Assembly (NCBI GenBank): GCA_001717545.1
Contig: CP017039.1
Coordinates: 1,612,001 to 1,676,000, forward strand
Length of the DNA: 64,000 bases
Direction of reading: 5' to 3'
Source: Anaerolineaceae bacterium oral taxon 439
GTDB taxonomy: Bacteria > Chloroflexota > Anaerolineae > Anaerolineales > Anaerolineaceae
Within the stretch, counting starts at the first letter, position 1. Each line of letters starts with the position of its first letter. Shown here in pieces: positions 29,321 to 64,000 of the stretch. The notes beneath the pieces are model-generated. The model saw only the letters and a list, made by a program, of their open reading frames with translations, was not told where the DNA came from and made no database searches. The position numbers and the translations under genes are program-made.

Positions 29321-30559
29321 ATGATGAAAAATAAATTTGACAATAATCTTATTTCAAAAATGAATCGAAGGCTTATCCTGGATTTGATTCGACGGAATGG
29401 ACCGATAAATCGGGCGGAGGTAGCGCATGTTACCGGATTAAGCATCCCTACTGTGATGAAGATTACTGACGAATTGAGCAGAATAAATTTAATTCGTGTG
29501 ATTGGAAAACGTAAATCGATTGGGGGCAAGCGGCCGGAGCTCTATGAGTTTATACCTAATTCATTCTGCACGATTGGGTTAGATATAGGGCGAAATAAGA
29601 TCCGCGCTCTTGTGATGGATATGTCTGCAAAAATTATTGCGAAGAAAGAAATCAGAACAGAAGAAACACATCCTGAGAGTGAACTTATTGAACGATTAAT
29701 TGTCTTAGTAAAGGAGTTAATTGCCGAGAGCAGTTTGAATGAGAACGAAATCCTGGGATTGGGAATCGGCATGCCCGGGCTGTTGGATACGGAAGCTGGC
29801 GTCGTTTTATTTTCTCCTGACTTTAATTGGGAGCATATCCCGCTGATTGAAAAATTTGAGGAGGAGTTTTCGTTCAGAACGGTTCTTGAGAATTCCAATC
29901 GAACGTTGGCGTTAGGCGAGCATTGGTTTGGCGCGGGGACTGACTCTAACGATCTGATCTGTGTGAATTTAGGATATGGAATCGGTGCGGGAATTATTGA
30001 GAACGGCGAAATCATTCAAGGCTCCAGCGGCAGTAATGGTGAATTTGGACATATCATTTTGGATAAAAATGGTCCGATCTGTAGCTGTGGAAACCGCGGC
30101 TGTTTGGAAGCTATCTCTTCCGGATATGCAATCGCGAATCAAATCAAGTATATGGTGGAACAGGGAACCAGTTCCATTGTGACAGAAATGTGCTGTGGTG
30201 ACTTATCGAGGATTGACGCTAAACTGGTTTTTAAGGCAGCTTTTTTGGATGATGAACTTTGCAAAAAGGTAATTAATAATGCTGTTGAATATATTGGGAT
30301 CGGAATTGCAGCATTAATCAACTTATTTGATCCTGAACAGATTATCCTCTCGGGAGGAATAACAAAATCCAGCGAAACGTTTAAAGAGAATCTCGAAATT
30401 ATTATTCAGAATAATCAAATGCGATTTGCAGGGAGAAAAGTACAGATTAAATATGGCAAGCTGGGAGATAACGCGTCAGCTATCGGTGCGGCGACGCTCC
30501 TTATTAAACAGTTGATTGATAATGGTGGATTTATTGATTCCCTTGATATACCATTGTAA
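29321..30559 (+). CDS. ROK family transcriptional repressor (XylR/NagC type)
   Basis: 412 aa. N-terminal winged helix (residues about 10-75): RRLILDLIRRNGPINRAEVA, HVTGLSIPTVMKITDELSR, GKRKSIGGKRPELYEF. The ROK domain follows with the ATP-like motif GLDIGRNKIRALVMDM, GIGMPGLLDTEAGVV, and the zinc motif GEFGHIILDKNGPICSCGNRGC. ROK repressors release DNA when a sugar binds the ROK domain. It is divergent from nothing but directly precedes the ABC cassette, and an inverted repeat very like known XylR operators overlaps the cassette promoter. The inducer is probably the transported sugar. Confidence 0.9.
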   Translation: MMKNKFDNNLISKMNRRLILDLIRRNGPINRAEVAHVTGLSIPTVMKITDELSRINLIRVIGKRKSIGGKRPELYEFIPNSFCTIGLDIGRNKIRALVMDMSAKIIAKKEIRTEETHPESELIERLIVLVKELIAESSLNENEILGLGIGMPGLLDTEAGVVLFSPDFNWEHIPLIEKFEEEFSFRTVLENSNRTLALGEHWFGAGTDSNDLICVNLGYGIGAGIIENGEIIQGSSGSNGEFGHIILDKNGPICSCGNRGCLEAISSGYAIANQIKYMVEQGTSSIVTEMCCGDLSRIDAKLVFKAAFLDDELCKKVINNAVEYIGIGIAALINLFDPEQIILSGGITKSSETFKENLEIIIQNNQMRFAGRKVQIKYGKLGDNASAIGAATLLIKQLIDNGGFIDSLDIPL

Positions 30560-30621
30560 ATGGTACTTTTATCATAGGATCTAAATGACAAATGCCTGTT
30601 TTCTCTTTTCCCCTTTCCCAT

Positions 30622-30645
30622 TATACTTAGTTTACTTAACTAAGT
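30622..30645 (+). promoter_or_regulatory. -10 box and ROK/XylR-type operator before ABC cassette 1
   Basis: TATACT (30622-30627) overlaps a perfect inverted repeat ACTTAGTT (30625-30632), N5, AACTAAGT (30638-30645). Firmicute XylR operators have TTAGTTTG and CAAACTAA-type arms, so the outer TTAGTT/AACTAA arms agree. The position over the transcription start is typical of repression by the ROK protein encoded just upstream. Confidence 0.7.
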
Positions 30646-30682
30646 TCAACTGATGCGGCTCAAACTACCAAAGGCGGATATT

Positions 30683-32182
30683 ATGAGTCAAAGTATATTA
30701 ATAGAGGTTGACAATATTACAAAATGTTTCCCTGGAACAATTGCGTTGGATCATGTTCATTTCAAAGTGAGGAAGGGATCTGTCCATGCAATATGCGGCG
30801 AAAATGGGGCTGGAAAATCAACGCTGATGAATATCATTGGCGGTGTATTTCTGCCGACGGAAGGAACCATTTTTTTTGAGGGAAATCAGGTAAGTATTCG
30901 ACGTCCAAAAGACGCGCAGGATCTGGGAATCAGCTTTGTTCATCAGGAACTGATTTTATGTGAGGAGCTCACCATTGCGGAAAATATCTTTATCGGCCGA
31001 CTTCCTAAAAGGTATTTAGCTGTCGATTATGTGAAGTTATTTGATCAGGCAAATCGTGTATTGGAACGATTCTCGGTTCCATTTACATCTGAAAGAATCG
31101 TTTCTTCGTTAAACGTTTCAGAAAAACAGATTGTTGAGATAGCCAAAGCTATATCGCTTAAATCTAAGTTGTTGATTCTGGATGAACCGACTTCTTCTTT
31201 GTCTGAGAAAGAAACTAAAAAGTTATTTGATATTATTCGGAGTCTTAAGGAGGAAGGACTCAGTATTTTATATATTAGCCACAGAATGGCTGAAATTTTC
31301 GAAATATGCGATCGTGTAACGATTTTACGGGATGGGAAGATTGTGAAGGAGAAGAATATCTCTGATACATGTCCTGATGAGGTTATTCAATGCATGGTCG
31401 GGCGGGCTCTGACAGATATGTATCCCGAAAAGAATATCAACAGTGGAGAAGAGCTCTTACGGGTTGAGAATCTTTCTAACGACGGCTTTTTTTCTAATAT
31501 AAGCTTTCGGCTATTCAAGGGCGAGATTTTGGGCTTTGCGGGGTTAGTCGGCGCAGGGCGGAGTGAGATTATGCGCTCGCTTTGCAGTATCGACAGCAAA
31601 ACCTCGGGATCCGTTTTTTTAAATCAAGAGAGTATTTCCTTTGAAAGGTATTGTGATTGTATTAGAAATGGAATTGTTTATTTGACCGAGGACCGGAAAT
31701 CAGAGGGGCTTTTTCTTGAAATGAGCGTTAAGAATAATATTAGCGTTGTCGATCTTAAAAATATTTCTGACGACTTGATTATTCGTAAACGAAAAGAGGA
31801 TTTATTAACCGCTGCGTATTGCTCAAAATTGGGAATTAAGACAGCTTCTATTGACTCGAAAGCCTCAAGTTTAAGCGGCGGTAATCAGCAAAAAGTGGTG
31901 ATTTCCAAATGGTTAGCAGTAAATCCAAAAATTATTATTTTAGATGAACCAACTCGTGGGATCGATGTGGGCGCTAAATCAGAGATTCATAAACTCCTTA
32001 GAGAGTTGGCTTCGGCCGGTATTGGAATCATCATTATTTCATCCGAACTGCCTGAGGTGATTGGCCTGTGTGATCGAGTTATTGTCATTCATGAAGGAAG
32101 GATTTCAGGTCAACTTTTATCCAACCAGTTTTCTGAGGAGTCTATATTGCGATTAGCATCTGGAGAGATCTCAATTAAATAA
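30683..32182 (+). CDS. Sugar ABC transporter ATP-binding protein (RbsA/MglA type)
   Basis: 499 aa from the ATG at 30683, preceded by AAAGGCGG; an upstream ATG at 30653 lies too near the promoter. Two fused ATPase domains: the first with GENGAGKSTLMNIIGG, the D-loop region LLILDEPTSSLSEKE and LYISHRMAEIFEICD; the second with the degenerate Walker A GLVGAGRSEIMRS, signature LSGGNQQKVVISKWL and Walker B IIILDEPTRGIDVGAKSE. This double-domain plan with an active C-terminal signature defines the carbohydrate uptake class CUT2. It energises import with the permease and binding protein that follow. Codon use is AT-richer than in the flanking housekeeping genes. Confidence 0.93.
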   Translation: MSQSILIEVDNITKCFPGTIALDHVHFKVRKGSVHAICGENGAGKSTLMNIIGGVFLPTEGTIFFEGNQVSIRRPKDAQDLGISFVHQELILCEELTIAENIFIGRLPKRYLAVDYVKLFDQANRVLERFSVPFTSERIVSSLNVSEKQIVEIAKAISLKSKLLILDEPTSSLSEKETKKLFDIIRSLKEEGLSILYISHRMAEIFEICDRVTILRDGKIVKEKNISDTCPDEVIQCMVGRALTDMYPEKNINSGEELLRVENLSNDGFFSNISFRLFKGEILGFAGLVGAGRSEIMRSLCSIDSKTSGSVFLNQESISFERYCDCIRNGIVYLTEDRKSEGLFLEMSVKNNISVVDLKNISDDLIIRKRKEDLLTAAYCSKLGIKTASIDSKASSLSGGNQQKVVISKWLAVNPKIIILDEPTRGIDVGAKSEIHKLLRELASAGIGIIIISSELPEVIGLCDRVIVIHEGRISGQLLSNQFSEESILRLASGEISIK

Positions 32183-32196
32183 GGAGCGGGTATTCC

Positions 32197-33147
32197 ATGA
32201 AATCTATGATAAAGAAGTTGACAGCTAAGCGTGAGGCAAGTGTTGCTTTAATTACGGTTTTGGCTGCGTTGATCACCGGTTTATTCCAACCCAAATTTTT
32301 TAGTATCAGCAATCTACGGTCGCTTGCGATAGGGCTCTCGACGGATGGAATCCTTGCAATCGCGCTGACGATTGTTCTTGTCCTCGGCGGTATTGAGCTT
32401 TCGGTGGGGTCTGTTATGGCTCTTTCTTGCGTGTTGGTCGGTTGGACGTTCTTAATAACGGATAATATTCTTTTTGGAATAATTGCTTCTCTTACCGTCG
32501 GAATTGGAATCGGTTTGTTTAATGGTTTGATGATCAGTAAATTAGATTTGCCTCCTTTTATTGTGACGCTTGGGATGCAGAGCCTAGCAAAAGGAGCGGC
32601 TTATATTTTTACGGAAGGTTCCCCTCTAAGTATGGGCGGTCTTCCTCAGTGGTTCAGGACGCTTGGGCGAGGATCTGTATTTAATATTCCGATTATTTTT
32701 ATTATCTTTATGGTTCTGGCTGTGATTTTTGATCTTTTAATGAAAAATATCACTACATTCCGAATGATTTTTTATGTTGGAAGCAATGAAAACGCGGCAA
32801 AGCTTTCCGGTATTAACGTTTCTGAAGTGAAGGTTGGTGTGTACATGCTTTCCGCTTTACTCGCAACGCTCACAGGAATTCTAAGCTTGTCCCGATTTAA
32901 TGTCGCGACGCCGACGCTTGGCACGATGGCTGAAACGCGTGCTATTTCTGCTGCAGTTATTGGCGGAACGAGTATGGCTGGTGGGGTTGGAACTGTTGTG
33001 GGTACTGTTCTCGGTGTCGTTTTATTAAACATAATTAATAATGCACTTGTAATGCTGAACGTATCGGTTTATTGGCAGGATTTCGTGACTGGCGCAATTC
33101 TTATCCTTGCGGTAACGCTCGATTATGTCTCTCATAGAAAAAAATAG
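32197..33147 (+). CDS. Sugar ABC transporter permease (RbsC type)
   Basis: 316 aa with eight to ten membrane helices. Family marks: LTIVLVLGGIELSVGSVMALSC, GLFNGLMISKLDLPPFIVTLGMQ, the coupling region NENAAKLSGINVSEVKVGVYML, and TRAISAAVIGGTSMAGGVGTV. It forms the membrane channel of a CUT2 importer. The gene starts 14 nt after the ATPase gene with an AAGGAG ribosome site, and the binding-protein gene follows. Confidence 0.93.
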   Translation: MKSMIKKLTAKREASVALITVLAALITGLFQPKFFSISNLRSLAIGLSTDGILAIALTIVLVLGGIELSVGSVMALSCVLVGWTFLITDNILFGIIASLTVGIGIGLFNGLMISKLDLPPFIVTLGMQSLAKGAAYIFTEGSPLSMGGLPQWFRTLGRGSVFNIPIIFIIFMVLAVIFDLLMKNITTFRMIFYVGSNENAAKLSGINVSEVKVGVYMLSALLATLTGILSLSRFNVATPTLGTMAETRAISAAVIGGTSMAGGVGTVVGTVLGVVLLNIINNALVMLNVSVYWQDFVTGAILILAVTLDYVSHRKK

Positions 33148-33204
33148 TTTATTCGTGGAATAATGCCGAAATTCTTCGGCAGGTAAATAAAATAAGGAGT
33201 TGTG

Positions 33205-34158
33205 ATGAAAAGAAATGTATATTTGTCGGTTGTTATCTTAGCTACAATGTTGCTTGTCATGATTGCGCCGGTTTTAGCTCAAGAGAGCGTTCTTACCGGG
33301 GCTCCGGATGAGGAATACTACATGATTTCATTTTTGTCCGGAATCGATTATTGGAAGACCTGCTTTCAGGGTTTCGAAGATTCCGCCAGGAATCACGGTG
33401 TGAAGGTTTTTTATACGGGCGATGCCAGCGCTGACGTTGCTAAGCAGGTCTCAGTCTTTGAACAAGTAGTCGCGAAGAACCCGAAGGGGATTGCCGTTAC
33501 CTGCGTTAATGCTGATGCGCTGGTTGATCCGATTAATGATGCAATTTCAAAGGGGATTCAAGTTGTTACCTTTGATTCAGATTCCCCGAACAGTCAACGC
33601 GCTTCGTATCTTTCGACAGGGAACGAAGCCGTTGGCGCTCGGGCAGCTCATTATTTCGCCGATATAGTTCCTGATGGGAAAATCGCGCTGCTCTATACAG
33701 TTGGTGCTGAAAATTCGGAAGCAAGGGTTGACGGGTTTGAGAATGAAATTGTGGCCGCAGGATTGAATATAGAGGTCGCAGCAAAAGTTAATGATAAGGG
33801 GGATCAGATCGAAGCTACGAAAAATATGGCCGCTGCTCTGCAGGCGGACCCGTCGATTAACGCCGTTTTCTGTATGGATGGGGTCGCCGGTGTGGCTGGC
33901 CCTACGGCTGTCATGGAGGCTGGTCGGGACGATATAAAGGTTGTTGCTTTCGATACGGATTCTGCAGTGCTGGATATGGTAAAAAATGGCGAGATTATGG
34001 CTACGGTTGCGCAAGGTACATATTCTATGGGGTATTGGTCTATGGAGTTCTTGTTTAGTTTAGCGCATGACTTGTCAAAATCGGCGCTGCCAACTTTCGT
34101 TGATACCGGCGTCACTTTTGTCGAATCCGACACGGTCGATCGTTACTATGTAAGATAA
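33205..34158 (+). CDS. Sugar-binding protein of ABC cassette 1 (RbsB-like)
   Basis: About 317 aa; the ATG at 33205 fits AAGGAG better than the GTG at 33202. A Sec signal peptide (LSVVILATMLLVMIAPVLAQ) has no lipobox cysteine, unlike the cassette 2 receptor. The mature part is of the periplasmic-binding type 4 family: YYMISFLSGIDYWKTCFQGFED, AVTCVNADALVDPINDAISKGI, VVTFDSDSPNSQRASYLSTGN, and IKVVAFDTDSAVLDMVKNGEI. These match ribose/galactose/autoinducer-like receptors; the exact ligand is open. Last gene before a strong terminator. Confidence 0.9.
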   Translation: MKRNVYLSVVILATMLLVMIAPVLAQESVLTGAPDEEYYMISFLSGIDYWKTCFQGFEDSARNHGVKVFYTGDASADVAKQVSVFEQVVAKNPKGIAVTCVNADALVDPINDAISKGIQVVTFDSDSPNSQRASYLSTGNEAVGARAAHYFADIVPDGKIALLYTVGAENSEARVDGFENEIVAAGLNIEVAAKVNDKGDQIEATKNMAAALQADPSINAVFCMDGVAGVAGPTAVMEAGRDDIKVVAFDTDSAVLDMVKNGEIMATVAQGTYSMGYWSMEFLFSLAHDLSKSALPTFVDTGVTFVESDTVDRYYVR

Positions 34159-34170
34159 TAAAATCTGAAC

Positions 34171-34208
34171 GAGGATGCCCTGTCGCAGGCGACGAAAGGG
34201 GCATCCTC
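34171..34208 (+). terminator. Terminator after ABC cassette 1
   Basis: GAGGATGCCC (34171-34180) pairs with GGGCATCCTC (34199-34208); a T-run follows at 34216-34220. Confidence 0.8.
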
Positions 34209-34268
34209 GAATGAATTTTTCGGAGATGCTAAATTTATAAGAATGATGATTGGATTACGGGATAAGTT

Positions 34269-35438
34269 ATGATTAATAATTTTTTGTATGAGCAGACGAC
34301 TAAAATTCTTTTTGGCGTTGGAACCTTCAATCGCATTGGAATCGAAACGGCGAAATTTGGCAGGCGCGTTTTGCTGGTTACTGAATCGGATAAGCCGCCT
34401 CTCGCGGTCGTTTATGATAAAGCTGAAGCACTATTGAAAAAAGAAAACTTGGAAGTTTTTCGATTTACAGGCGTGATCCCGAACCCAACAACTGAAAGTA
34501 TTAACCTGGGGACAGAAATCGCGCGAAAACAGAAAATTGACGTCGTCGTAGGAATTGGCGGCGGCTCTGCATTGGATACGGCCAAAGCGATAGCTGTGTC
34601 CGCAGTAAATGAGGGGCAAGCATGGGATTTTCTTTTTTATAAGAAACCTCAGCCGCAGCGGACATTGCCGACAATTGCCGTCACGACGACTTCTGGTACG
34701 GGTTCGCAAGTAACTCAGGTTGCAGTGATGACCGAAACCGTGACAAGGACAAAAAGCGCAATCTACAATAATCTTATTTTTCCCAAAGCTGCTGTGATCG
34801 ATCCAGAACTAATGGCGACAATTCCCGCGCATATTACTGCGTCTACCGGTTTTGACGCTTTCGCTCATTCTTTTGAGAGTTATTTAAATATAAATAGTTC
34901 CGTTTACACAGATATGGTTGCGTTAGAAGGCATCAAAAACTGTGTAAAGTTTTTAGAGCGTGCTGTTAACCATGGGGACGATCTCGACGCTCGAACAGGC
35001 ATGGCTTGGGCCGATCTTTGCGGCGGACTTGCTATTGCGAACGCAGGCGTTACATTGCCGCATGGTATTGGTATGACGATAAGCGGATACTGCCCGCATA
35101 TTATGCATGGCGAAAGTCTTGCGTTAACCTACCCGTCTTTTACCCGGTTTACGTTTCCTTACGCGGTTCAAAAATTTGCACAGGTCGCAAGGTTATTTAA
35201 TCCGGGTTATTCGTCTGAAACGGATTTGAAAGCTGCAGAACTGTGCTGTGAGGAAATTGATATTTTTCTGAAAAAAATTGGCATGTGGCTGGGATTCAAA
35301 GAATTTGGTGTTGATCGACATACGCTTCGGGAGATCGCAAACCGGAGTCACGATTTACCGGATTATAAAGCAAATCCGGTGATCGCTGACATCGACGAAA
35401 TCTATCGTCAGCTTCAAGTGGGCCTCGATCGTACGTAA
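34269..35438 (+). CDS. Iron-containing alcohol dehydrogenase
   Basis: 389 aa, the usual length of group III Fe-ADHs. NAD(P) motif VVGIGGGSALDTAKAIAV, TTTSGTGSQVTQVAVM, then the metal ligands: Asp in PELMATIPAHITASTGFDAFAH, with His in the same stretch, and His residues in GVTLPHGIGMTISGYCPHIMHG. Members oxidise or reduce small alcohols, diols, glycerol or lactaldehyde. It follows cassette 1 after a terminator, on the same strand, and probably acts on the imported substrate or its fermentation products. Confidence 0.9.
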   Translation: MINNFLYEQTTKILFGVGTFNRIGIETAKFGRRVLLVTESDKPPLAVVYDKAEALLKKENLEVFRFTGVIPNPTTESINLGTEIARKQKIDVVVGIGGGSALDTAKAIAVSAVNEGQAWDFLFYKKPQPQRTLPTIAVTTTSGTGSQVTQVAVMTETVTRTKSAIYNNLIFPKAAVIDPELMATIPAHITASTGFDAFAHSFESYLNINSSVYTDMVALEGIKNCVKFLERAVNHGDDLDARTGMAWADLCGGLAIANAGVTLPHGIGMTISGYCPHIMHGESLALTYPSFTRFTFPYAVQKFAQVARLFNPGYSSETDLKAAELCCEEIDIFLKKIGMWLGFKEFGVDRHTLREIANRSHDLPDYKANPVIADIDEIYRQLQVGLDRT

Positions 35439-60216: not shown

Positions 60217-60493
60217 GCTGCCTCTTTTCGGTTGACGCGAGGATTCCCCGCGTTTTTTCTTTCAGGCTTCCATAAATTCTGGAAGGCGAAGTAACTGCAT
60301 TGAAAGATTTTAGCATAAGTTCGCCGGATGTTTTCGGGTTTCTGCGCTGATTTTCTGACCCGGATGAGGACGGGATGGGTCCGTTTTGAAGATACCCTTC
60401 CCTGGTCATAAGTTGTATATAATTAGGGGGGTAACGGATTCCGGACGCGTTTCGGGCTATTTCAGAGATAAAAGCGAAAGTTGGGCGATAAGT

Positions 60494-62536
60494 ATGGATC
60501 CTAAGTCGTTTCAGGAATGTCATATCGGGCTGGCAAGGCGGGTCCTTCCGTGCTTAATGTTTTTGTTGATTCTGGCTGTCGGTTTGATCGTATATGATGA
60601 TTATGGAATCCCGTATGACGACGTTCAGGAACGGCGAACGACTTTAGTCAATTTGAAATATATACTGCGGTCGGCTGCGCCTTCGCTTTCGCTGCCGGCG
60701 GAGCTTGAATCCGCTCAGGATCTTCTGCAATGGGGCGACCGGTATTATGGCGTTGCAGCGCAATTGCCGACGGCGATCGTCGAATATATTTTCGGTTTCT
60801 CGTTCAGTTGGCGCCGGATTTTCATGCTTCGGCACTTTTGGACCTTCCTTCAATTTTTCACGGCGCTGATTTTTTTCTTTTTGATCCTTCGGCGCAGGTT
60901 CAGATCGACGTTTTTAGCGATGGCAGGCGTTCTATGCCTGTGGCTCAGTCCTCGAATTTTCGCTGACGCATTTTATAATATCAAGGACATCCCCTTTCTT
61001 TCGTGGGTCATCATTGCGAGTTATTTTATGTTCCTTCGAATAGAGAACAGTTCGAAAAGCGCATTGGCGCTCTTTGCGTTCTTCTCGGCGATAGCAACGA
61101 ATACCCGTGTCGTCGGAGGTATTTTGCTGTTGCTGGGCTTTGTCGTCCTCGTTATTGAATTTATCCGGAAACGCCGTCCGGTCAGGTCTTTTTTGTTTGA
61201 TTGCCTGATTTTATTTTTGGTGTATGGCGTGGGCTGGGTCCTGATTTCTCCGGTCGCCTGGAGTGATCCGATTGGCGCAATGATTCAAACGCTTCGATAT
61301 TTCTCTGCGCATCCGCATCCTTTAGCTGAACTGTACTTTGGAACCGTATTGACTTCAAAACCGCTCCCATGGCATTATTTGCCTGTCTGGATTGGAATTA
61401 CGACGCCGATCCTGATTGTTGTCAGCTTTGTTATCGGGGCGGGTATTTTTACGCGGCGCTTAATGCTGCGGCGCGGACGTGAGAGCGCGTTTGAGCTGCA
61501 GCTGATGGATGGATACGCTGCCGCGTTGGTAGTACTGCCGGTTCTTTCCGCGATTCTATTAAATTCGACGCTGTATAATGGATGGCGTCATTTTTACTTC
61601 GTGTATCCATGGATTATTTTTATCTCGGCTATCTGTGTGGATTGGTTGCTTCGAATGGATCGACGGATGGCCCGATCCGCGGCGACAGCGATCGTTATTC
61701 TTGGGATCGGCTGGCTCGCCGGGTGGAACCTGCGCTTCCATCCGTATCAGTACGTTTACTTTGGAGGTTTCCTCGCTGAAAGCCAGCGAGAAGATTTTGA
61801 GAACGATTATTGGGGCGTTTCGGGGCGACGGACGTTAGAAAAGATCATCGAGACGGATTCTGATTCCCGGGTTGCCGTGTCGACGATTGGCGTTCGGTTG
61901 GATCTTGCAATTCTTTTTTTTCCGGAACAGGAAGCTGAAAGGATCTACCTGGTTGATTGGAACGACGATTATTCAGAAAAGGATTATCTTGCTATTGGAT
62001 ATTCCTCGAAAGAATATAATCTGTTTGGAAAAAGCTGCGTCTTTCGATCTGACTTCCAGTTCCCGGCTTACGAGCGGGTCGACCTGTTAATGGTGGACAG
62101 ACTGCCGATCGTGGGGCTCTACAAGCGGATCACGAACCGATATTTGGGGATCGAAAAGATATCGGCCGCTTCCGACGAAGAAAAGGCTGGGGAAGCGATT
62201 CCGGCGTTGACGGATTGGGACCGGACGACGGAATGGAGCTATGACGAAACGGCGAACGCGAAGAAAATTTCACTGCTGATCGAGTTGCGAGAACCCCAAT
62301 CTATTTCCGGGGTGACGCTGCGGACGGTTATCCAGCGGCATGGGGTCCCGGCGAAGGTGGTTATCTCGACGTCCATGGATGGCTCGGCGTATCGACCGGT
62401 GACGCTGACGGATACGAGCTATGCGGAGTTCTTCTTTGAACCGGTCGAGGCGCGGTACGTTCGGATCGAAGGCGCTGAAGCGGGGACGGATTGGCGCCTG
62501 AGCGAAGTGCAGCTTTGGGCTGGGACGCTTGATTAG
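60494..62536 (+). CDS. Polytopic glycosyltransferase-like protein with C-terminal discoidin-type domain
   Basis: About 680 aa from the ATG at 60494, downstream of the TATATAAT box; an ATG at 60386 lies upstream of it and is unlikely. About 11 membrane helices follow a GT39/ArnT-like plan: IVYDDYGIPYDDVQERRTT, LWLSPRIFADAFYNIKDIPF, NTRVVGGILLLLGF, the PW..LPVWIGITTP stretch and NGWRHFYFVYPWI. The soluble end contains a beta-sandwich resembling F5/8 type C domains (LREPQSISGVTLRTV, YVRIEGAEAGTDWRLSEVQL). Predicted to move sugar from a lipid carrier to proteins or glycans outside. A paralog follows 15 nt later. Confidence 0.78.
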   Translation: MDPKSFQECHIGLARRVLPCLMFLLILAVGLIVYDDYGIPYDDVQERRTTLVNLKYILRSAAPSLSLPAELESAQDLLQWGDRYYGVAAQLPTAIVEYIFGFSFSWRRIFMLRHFWTFLQFFTALIFFFLILRRRFRSTFLAMAGVLCLWLSPRIFADAFYNIKDIPFLSWVIIASYFMFLRIENSSKSALALFAFFSAIATNTRVVGGILLLLGFVVLVIEFIRKRRPVRSFLFDCLILFLVYGVGWVLISPVAWSDPIGAMIQTLRYFSAHPHPLAELYFGTVLTSKPLPWHYLPVWIGITTPILIVVSFVIGAGIFTRRLMLRRGRESAFELQLMDGYAAALVVLPVLSAILLNSTLYNGWRHFYFVYPWIIFISAICVDWLLRMDRRMARSAATAIVILGIGWLAGWNLRFHPYQYVYFGGFLAESQREDFENDYWGVSGRRTLEKIIETDSDSRVAVSTIGVRLDLAILFFPEQEAERIYLVDWNDDYSEKDYLAIGYSSKEYNLFGKSCVFRSDFQFPAYERVDLLMVDRLPIVGLYKRITNRYLGIEKISAASDEEKAGEAIPALTDWDRTTEWSYDETANAKKISLLIELREPQSISGVTLRTVIQRHGVPAKVVISTSMDGSAYRPVTLTDTSYAEFFFEPVEARYVRIEGAEAGTDWRLSEVQLWAGTLD

Positions 62537-62551
62537 AATGGATATGCTGGC

Positions 62552-64000
62552 ATGACGAACTTGAATGATTTTTTGAAGCGTTCCTGGAAAACGATTGTTA
62601 TTGTGTTTGTTTTCGCGGGAATTCTTCTGATCGGATTGGTCATTTATGATGATTATGGTATAGCGTATGACGAAACGATCGAGCGGACAACGACTTTTGT
62701 AAACTTGAAGTATATTCTCGAAACGATTCATCCGCAAATCCGGCTCCCGGAGGTATTTGACGAGATTCCTGATTTGGCTGAATGGAAGGATCGGTATTAC
62801 GGCGTCGCGGTTCAGCTTCCGGCTGCAATGATCGAATGGATGACTGGTTTTAAATTCAGCCAATTTACGATTTATAGAATCAGGCACCTGTGGATTTTCC
62901 TGCAATTTTATGCTGCATTGATTTTTTTCTTTCTCTTGTTGCGAAGACGTTTCGCCTCTGTCCGGACCGCGATAATCGGCGTTCTTTTGCTATGGTTGAG
63001 TCCGCGAATTTTCAGTGACGCTTTCTATAATATTAAAGACCTTCCGTTTTTATCCTGGATCGTTATTTCGTTGTACTTCATGTTCCGCTGGCTTGAAAAT
63101 CGTTTGAGAAGGTATTTGATTCTTTTCTCGATCGTCTCTGCTGTAGCGATTAATATTCGAATTGTCGGGGGAATGCTGATTGCGGTAGCTGTCGGAATTC
63201 TGATCAGCCAGCTTTTGCGAAAGGAAAAATTACCGAAGACAGTTGTTGCGGAGGCTCTGACTATTTTTTTTGTTTCGGCGGCTGTTTGGATCTTGATTAC
63301 CCCGTTAGCCTGGAAGAATCCGATCCTCGTTTTGGGGGATACGTTGCGGACGTTTTCATCATATCCCCACTATACTCGCGAACTATATTTTGGGAAGCGT
63401 TATTTAAACACACAGCTTCCCTGGCATTATCTTCCGATTTGGATTGGGATTACGACGCCTGTCCTCGTTATTTTCAGCTTTTTGGCTTGTTTGTTGTGGG
63501 AAACTGGAACCTTTGTCTGGCGCTTTTTCAACGGTGATAAGCCCCGAAATATAGCGGGTTCGACGATTCAAAAAAGTTTTGATCGCGGCATTTTGGCGCT
63601 TATTTTTATCCCGATTCTTTTCACGATACTATTTCATTCACCGATATATAACGGATGGCGACACTTTTATTTTGCTTATCCCTGGATTGTTTATTTTGCG
63701 GTTGATTGGATAGATCGTTTATCAAAGTCAAGATTTAGTTTTGTCAGGGCTGCTATTTTTAGTTTGGTTGGGATGAGCCTGATTTATAATGCATCTTGGA
63801 TTATTCGCGTTCATCCTTATCAATTTATCTATTTCAATGAAGTATTCCCGCGGAATATTCGGACGGGGTTTGAAAAGGATTACTAGTGCGTCTCTTGTCG
63901 GGATTTATTGCGGCAGCTTCTTGATCAGGACTCTAACCTGAGAATCGGTATTGATGCCTGGGGAATGATCCTTTCGCAGAGTTTTGATGGGCTACGAACG
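62552..64000 (+). pseudogene. Paralogous glycosyltransferase-like gene interrupted by in-frame TAG (runs off the window)
   Basis: Reads as a 444-aa protein to a TAG at 63884-63886 and stays open in the same frame to the window end. The sequence follows the 60494-62536 paralog closely: IYDDYGIAYDETIERTTTFV, LWLSPRIFSDAFYNIKDLPF, NIRIVGGMLIAVAV, IGITTPVLVIF, NGWRHFYFAYPWI. At the stop the paralog has FENDYWGVSGRRTLEKI; this copy has FEKDY, TAG, CVSCRDLLRQLLDQD. A TGG-to-TAG change at the Trp codon thus explains the interruption. The C-terminal part lies outside the window. The gene is AT-richer than most neighbours. Confidence 0.75.

Follow-up and report, generated by a model that had tools for sequence, protein, structure and literature searches.

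Glycosyltransferases of the GT-C class use polyprenyl-phosphate-linked sugars, and the GT-C/GT39-like proteins (ArnT, PMT, OST STT3, and ALG9) consist of a multi-helix membrane core and an extracytoplasmic C-terminal domain, an arrangement that they share with the products of the two tandem genes described here (genes A and B of Anaerolineaceae bacterium oral taxon 439, a member of the Flexilinea group). Nonsense-type pseudogenes among tandem paralogs carry a single in-frame stop at a conserved residue in a frame that is otherwise intact, which is also the form of gene B. Gene conversion between tandem paralogs is a known process, and its marks (i.e., identical 3′ tracts in divergent genes, with a sharp border between the two) are the same in genes A and B and in their relatives. 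The window analyzed is a stretch of 64,000 nucleotides (G000:C1:1612001-1676000) from a genome assembled as a single 2,945,494-bp contig, in which the continuation past the window end can be read. We conclude that gene B is probably a young pseudogene, formed by a recent nonsense mutation.

Two tandem glycosyltransferase genes and an in-frame amber codon

Gene A (60491-62536, plus strand) is, as judged from the open reading frame list, Pfam, AlphaFold2, and Foldseek, an intact GT-C glycosyltransferase gene that encodes 681 residues, with a C-terminal F5/8 type C domain and a TAG stop. The AlphaFold2 model of its product (pLDDT 80.8, pTM 0.82) has a polytopic membrane core with the GT-C fold, and Foldseek matches it to ArnT (5ezm, E 1.3e-6), yeast OST (8age), ALG9 (9s6u), and Pmt4 (9i5k). 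The Pfam family PMT_2 agrees with these matches, scoring below its cut-off in gene A (E 6.9e-5) and above it in gene B as translated (E 1.3e-6); an NCBIfam search gave no match. The two genes are 47% identical over the core, and an acidic motif (DDYG...DE) is present after the first membrane helix, with columns G31, D37, G39, and D43 invariant in 22 sequences. By these marks, genes A and B encode GT-C glycosyltransferases and putative users of polyprenyl-phosphate sugars. They differ from ArnT, PMT, OST STT3, and ALG9 in that identity to these proteins is just 10-14% and in having an F5/8C (CBM32-like) domain at the C terminus. In gene A this domain scores above the gathering cut-off of PF00754 (E 1.2e-9, 38.8 bits, cut-off 28.2) and gives profile matches to the clostridial CBM32 structures 2j7m and 2j1a. 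The fusion partner of the CBM32/F5-F8 type C module is here a membrane glycosyltransferase instead of a glycoside hydrolase; carbohydrate binding is predicted.

Gene B lies downstream of gene A in tandem. Its ATG at 62552 shares one frame with a TAG at 63884-63886, so that the gene as translated (62552-63886, plus strand; open reading frame list, Pfam, alignment, and AlphaFold2) encodes a 444-residue membrane core that closes soon after the last membrane helix. The amber codon occupies a near-invariant Trp column equivalent to W441 of gene A, which comes after that helix (residues 392-416 in gene A). Past the amber codon the frame is open to the window end (63887-64000), as the initial annotation had stated, and continues beyond it for 247 codons in total, ending with a TGA at L003:2629-2631 (64628-64630 in window numbering); the remaining two frames over this stretch contain 10 and 15 stops. 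The same annotation had asked whether the continuation holds a discoidin-type end, and it does: PF00754 is matched there with E 6.8e-10 and 39.6 bits (cut-off 28.2), again an F5/8C, CBM32-like discoidin domain.

To place the stop within the family we used two alignments. In the wider one, 132 of the 141 rows with a residue at this position have Trp (the others being Tyr in six, Leu in two, and Gly in one), the rows including overlapping copies of the same gene; in the other, made up of 20 paralogs of this genus, all intact rows have Trp. The placement of an in-frame TAG at a conserved Trp of the second paralog is thereby confirmed, and a single-base change at the Trp codon is well supported. 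Relatives that end naturally at this codon had been named as one observation that would overturn the reading, and no other member of the 141-row alignment has a stop in the column. A TAA that had been reported in one F. flocculi hit falls outside the gene, whose reading frame runs uninterrupted through 662 codons. The Cys residues at +1 and +4 after the gene B stop occupy variable columns. Downstream of the Trp, a domain of ~100 residues is kept in every aligned relative, including those that lack the discoidin domain. Gene B therefore carries an in-frame stop at a position that is a sense codon in its relatives, and TAG acts as a stop in this genome.

Recoding, error, or truncation

That TAG is a working stop is indicated by several observations. 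Release factor RF1 is found in the genome (490.6 bits against a curated cut-off of 423.25), none of the 48 tRNAs (found with Rfam, anticodons assigned by ARAGORN) carries the UAG-reading anticodon CUA, and, besides gene B, 13 open reading frames in the window end in TAG. The initial annotation had taken TAG to be a normal stop on the example of a DUF6311 gene; the generalization holds, a DUF6311 gene ending in TAG was not confirmed, and the TAG-terminated genes include atpA, a rex-like gene, DUF554 and DUF6273 genes, and gene A. In atpA the Pfam domain reaches nearly to the end of the protein. Programmed readthrough or recoding of the gene B UAG would account for the open frame beyond the stop, and the TAG that closes gene A shares its frame with the gene B start codon, an agreement that is meaningless, as no suppressor is present. 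Against RF1, the lack of a suppressor among the 48 tRNAs, and the many conserved genes that end in TAG, recoding is highly improbable and can be regarded as largely refuted, in line with the earlier rejection of a general recoding.

A sequencing or assembly error, with a sense codon in the chromosome and an intact gene B, is harder to set aside. The amber codon is known from a single assembly of the species, it is a single-base difference, and the remainder of the frame is unbroken and shows no decay. The change also produces a CTAG, a tetranucleotide that is avoided in the window (5 observed versus 28 expected from trinucleotide counts); the amber codon with its preceding base is one of these five, and each of the 13 other TAG stops is preceded by a base other than C. 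The rarity of CTAG fits a young mutation and an error equally well, and a base-calling mistake would look identical to a true mutation. A 317-bp exact repeat at the locus could have caused a mis-assembly, though it lies ~370 bp downstream of the stop, and the amber codon itself is outside it. The genome is one contig with 99.89% completeness, and the amber site is not in a homopolymer. Taken as a whole we consider an error somewhat unlikely, and we infer that the stop is a true and recent mutation.

How recent it may be can be judged from the sequence after the stop. Gene B has no frameshifts and no further stops there, and its post-Trp conservation is near that of the intact gene A (0.83 versus 1.05 bits per column, with 8 and 7, respectively, of 13 conserved residues), which implies that decay has hardly begun. 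The earlier suggestion of a freshly inactivated gene is favored by this intact downstream frame; the slightly lower score of gene B relative to gene A is a point against it. On the proposed reading, a recent nonsense mutation would have struck the conserved Trp with which the extracytoplasmic domain begins, translation would halt past the last membrane helix, and the product would be a membrane core minus its C-terminal (extracytoplasmic) domains that is probably inactive. Loss of function is suggested by the alignments, in which all relatives have the post-Trp domain.

A second point against a recent inactivation is that the core and its acidic motif are complete, and a truncated active enzyme is conceivable. 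The 444-residue core might work alone or in partnership with a C-terminal fragment translated on its own: the stop falls 3′ of the last membrane helix, so the entire membrane core is retained, and some relatives do without the discoidin domain. The ~100-residue domain after the Trp is nevertheless retained by all aligned relatives, with or without discoidin. We found no convincing in-frame restart near the stop: the nearest candidate is a TTG eight codons on, preceded by a GGA alone, and an ATG 27 codons past the stop has no such site. A restart just 3′ of the stop was therefore rejected, the signals being weak, and a fragment made from it would presumably be without an export signal. A functional truncation or split gene is accordingly quite unlikely, and a recent nonsense mutation that inactivates gene B is the reading we retain. 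The amber codon, taken alone, is an ordinary nonsense change.

Shared 3′ ends and possibly exchanged cores

Near its 3′ end gene A contains a 317-bp segment (62208-62524, plus strand) that recurs unchanged at the 3′ end of gene B, where the second copy lies beyond the window (G000:C1:1676254-1676570, i.e., L003:2255-2571). Outside the repeat the two genes are ~50% identical, and identity then switches abruptly to 100%. The GC content at third codon positions (GC3) of the repeat is 0.72, like that of most genes in the window (about 0.6-0.75), and that of the cores before the Trp is 0.55 and 0.46. Gene conversion between A and B is suggested by the identity switch and not by conflicting trees, the core and C-terminal trees of the pair being in agreement. 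The copies form a direct repeat with a spacing of 2,046 bp, and recombination between them would delete 2,046 bp comprising most of gene B, amber codon included. The initial annotation had also considered a phase-variable codon, for which no mechanism is visible: the site has no simple repeat, and genes A and B are too dissimilar locally for easy repair of the amber codon by conversion to be likely. Elsewhere in the window, GC3 falls to 0.38-0.47 in a block of genes at 29321-35438, compared with about 0.7 on either side, and the block is possibly a foreign island.

Common 3′ ends on different catalytic cores are found in a further three gene pairs of the genus. Two tandem paralogs of Flexilinea flocculi (G009; L036:1983-3968 and L036:4037-6016) are 97-100% identical over the last ~240 codons and ~52% identical before them. 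Between G009 and the genome of a second Flexilinea species, G010, two loci with matching neighbor genes (L045:1429-3426 versus L048:1943-3925, and L042:3303-4955 versus L041:1546-3291) have 3′ ends that are 89-98% similar and catalytic cores that are ~45-65% identical, the pattern that an exchange of the core would leave. The core tree rejects the groupings G009_1+G009_2 (AU p 3.2e-5) and G009_d+G010_d (p 1.3e-6), p values that are descriptive since the two pairs were chosen after their identity profiles had been viewed; the C-terminal tree supports both groupings at 99-100. Both marks of gene conversion (a sharp switch in identity and a conflict between trees) are thus found in the family, the tree conflict coming from these two pairs and not from genes A and B. 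As far as can be read from sequence comparison, gene conversion or core exchange seems to have recurred in the Flexilinea-group glycosyltransferases; a literature search for comparable conversion of glycosyltransferase genes found nothing relevant.

As to the wider distribution of the family, a member beside a zinc peptidase gene was seen in G000 and G001 only, and the search for a plasmid home gave one distant hit only. Tandem and longer (800+ residue) relatives are present in Lachnospiraceae MAGs (L133, L134, L136-L138, L140, L143, and L145), which suggests transfer between Chloroflexota and Firmicutes.

One may speculate that the Flexilinea arrays are a diversification system, in which recombination swaps the catalytic membrane cores while the CBM32-like 3′ ends stay constant, and in which broken copies, gene B among them, survive as silent donors or as units that recombination between direct repeats could delete; we regard this as unlikely. 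If the amber codon is real and polymorphic, it would mark a probable surface-glycan gene under loss in one lineage. Catalytic cores exchanged against shared 3′ binding domains would suggest a means of glycan variation in a Chloroflexota genus that has received little study, and it is the recurrent sharing of ends, rather than an ordinary amber codon, that is the part worth following. Compared with ordinary nonsense pseudogenes, gene B differs in nothing but its identical 3′ repeat. Compared with gene conversion generally, the shared part is here repeatedly the C-terminal domain region, and the cores differ at syntenic loci across species.
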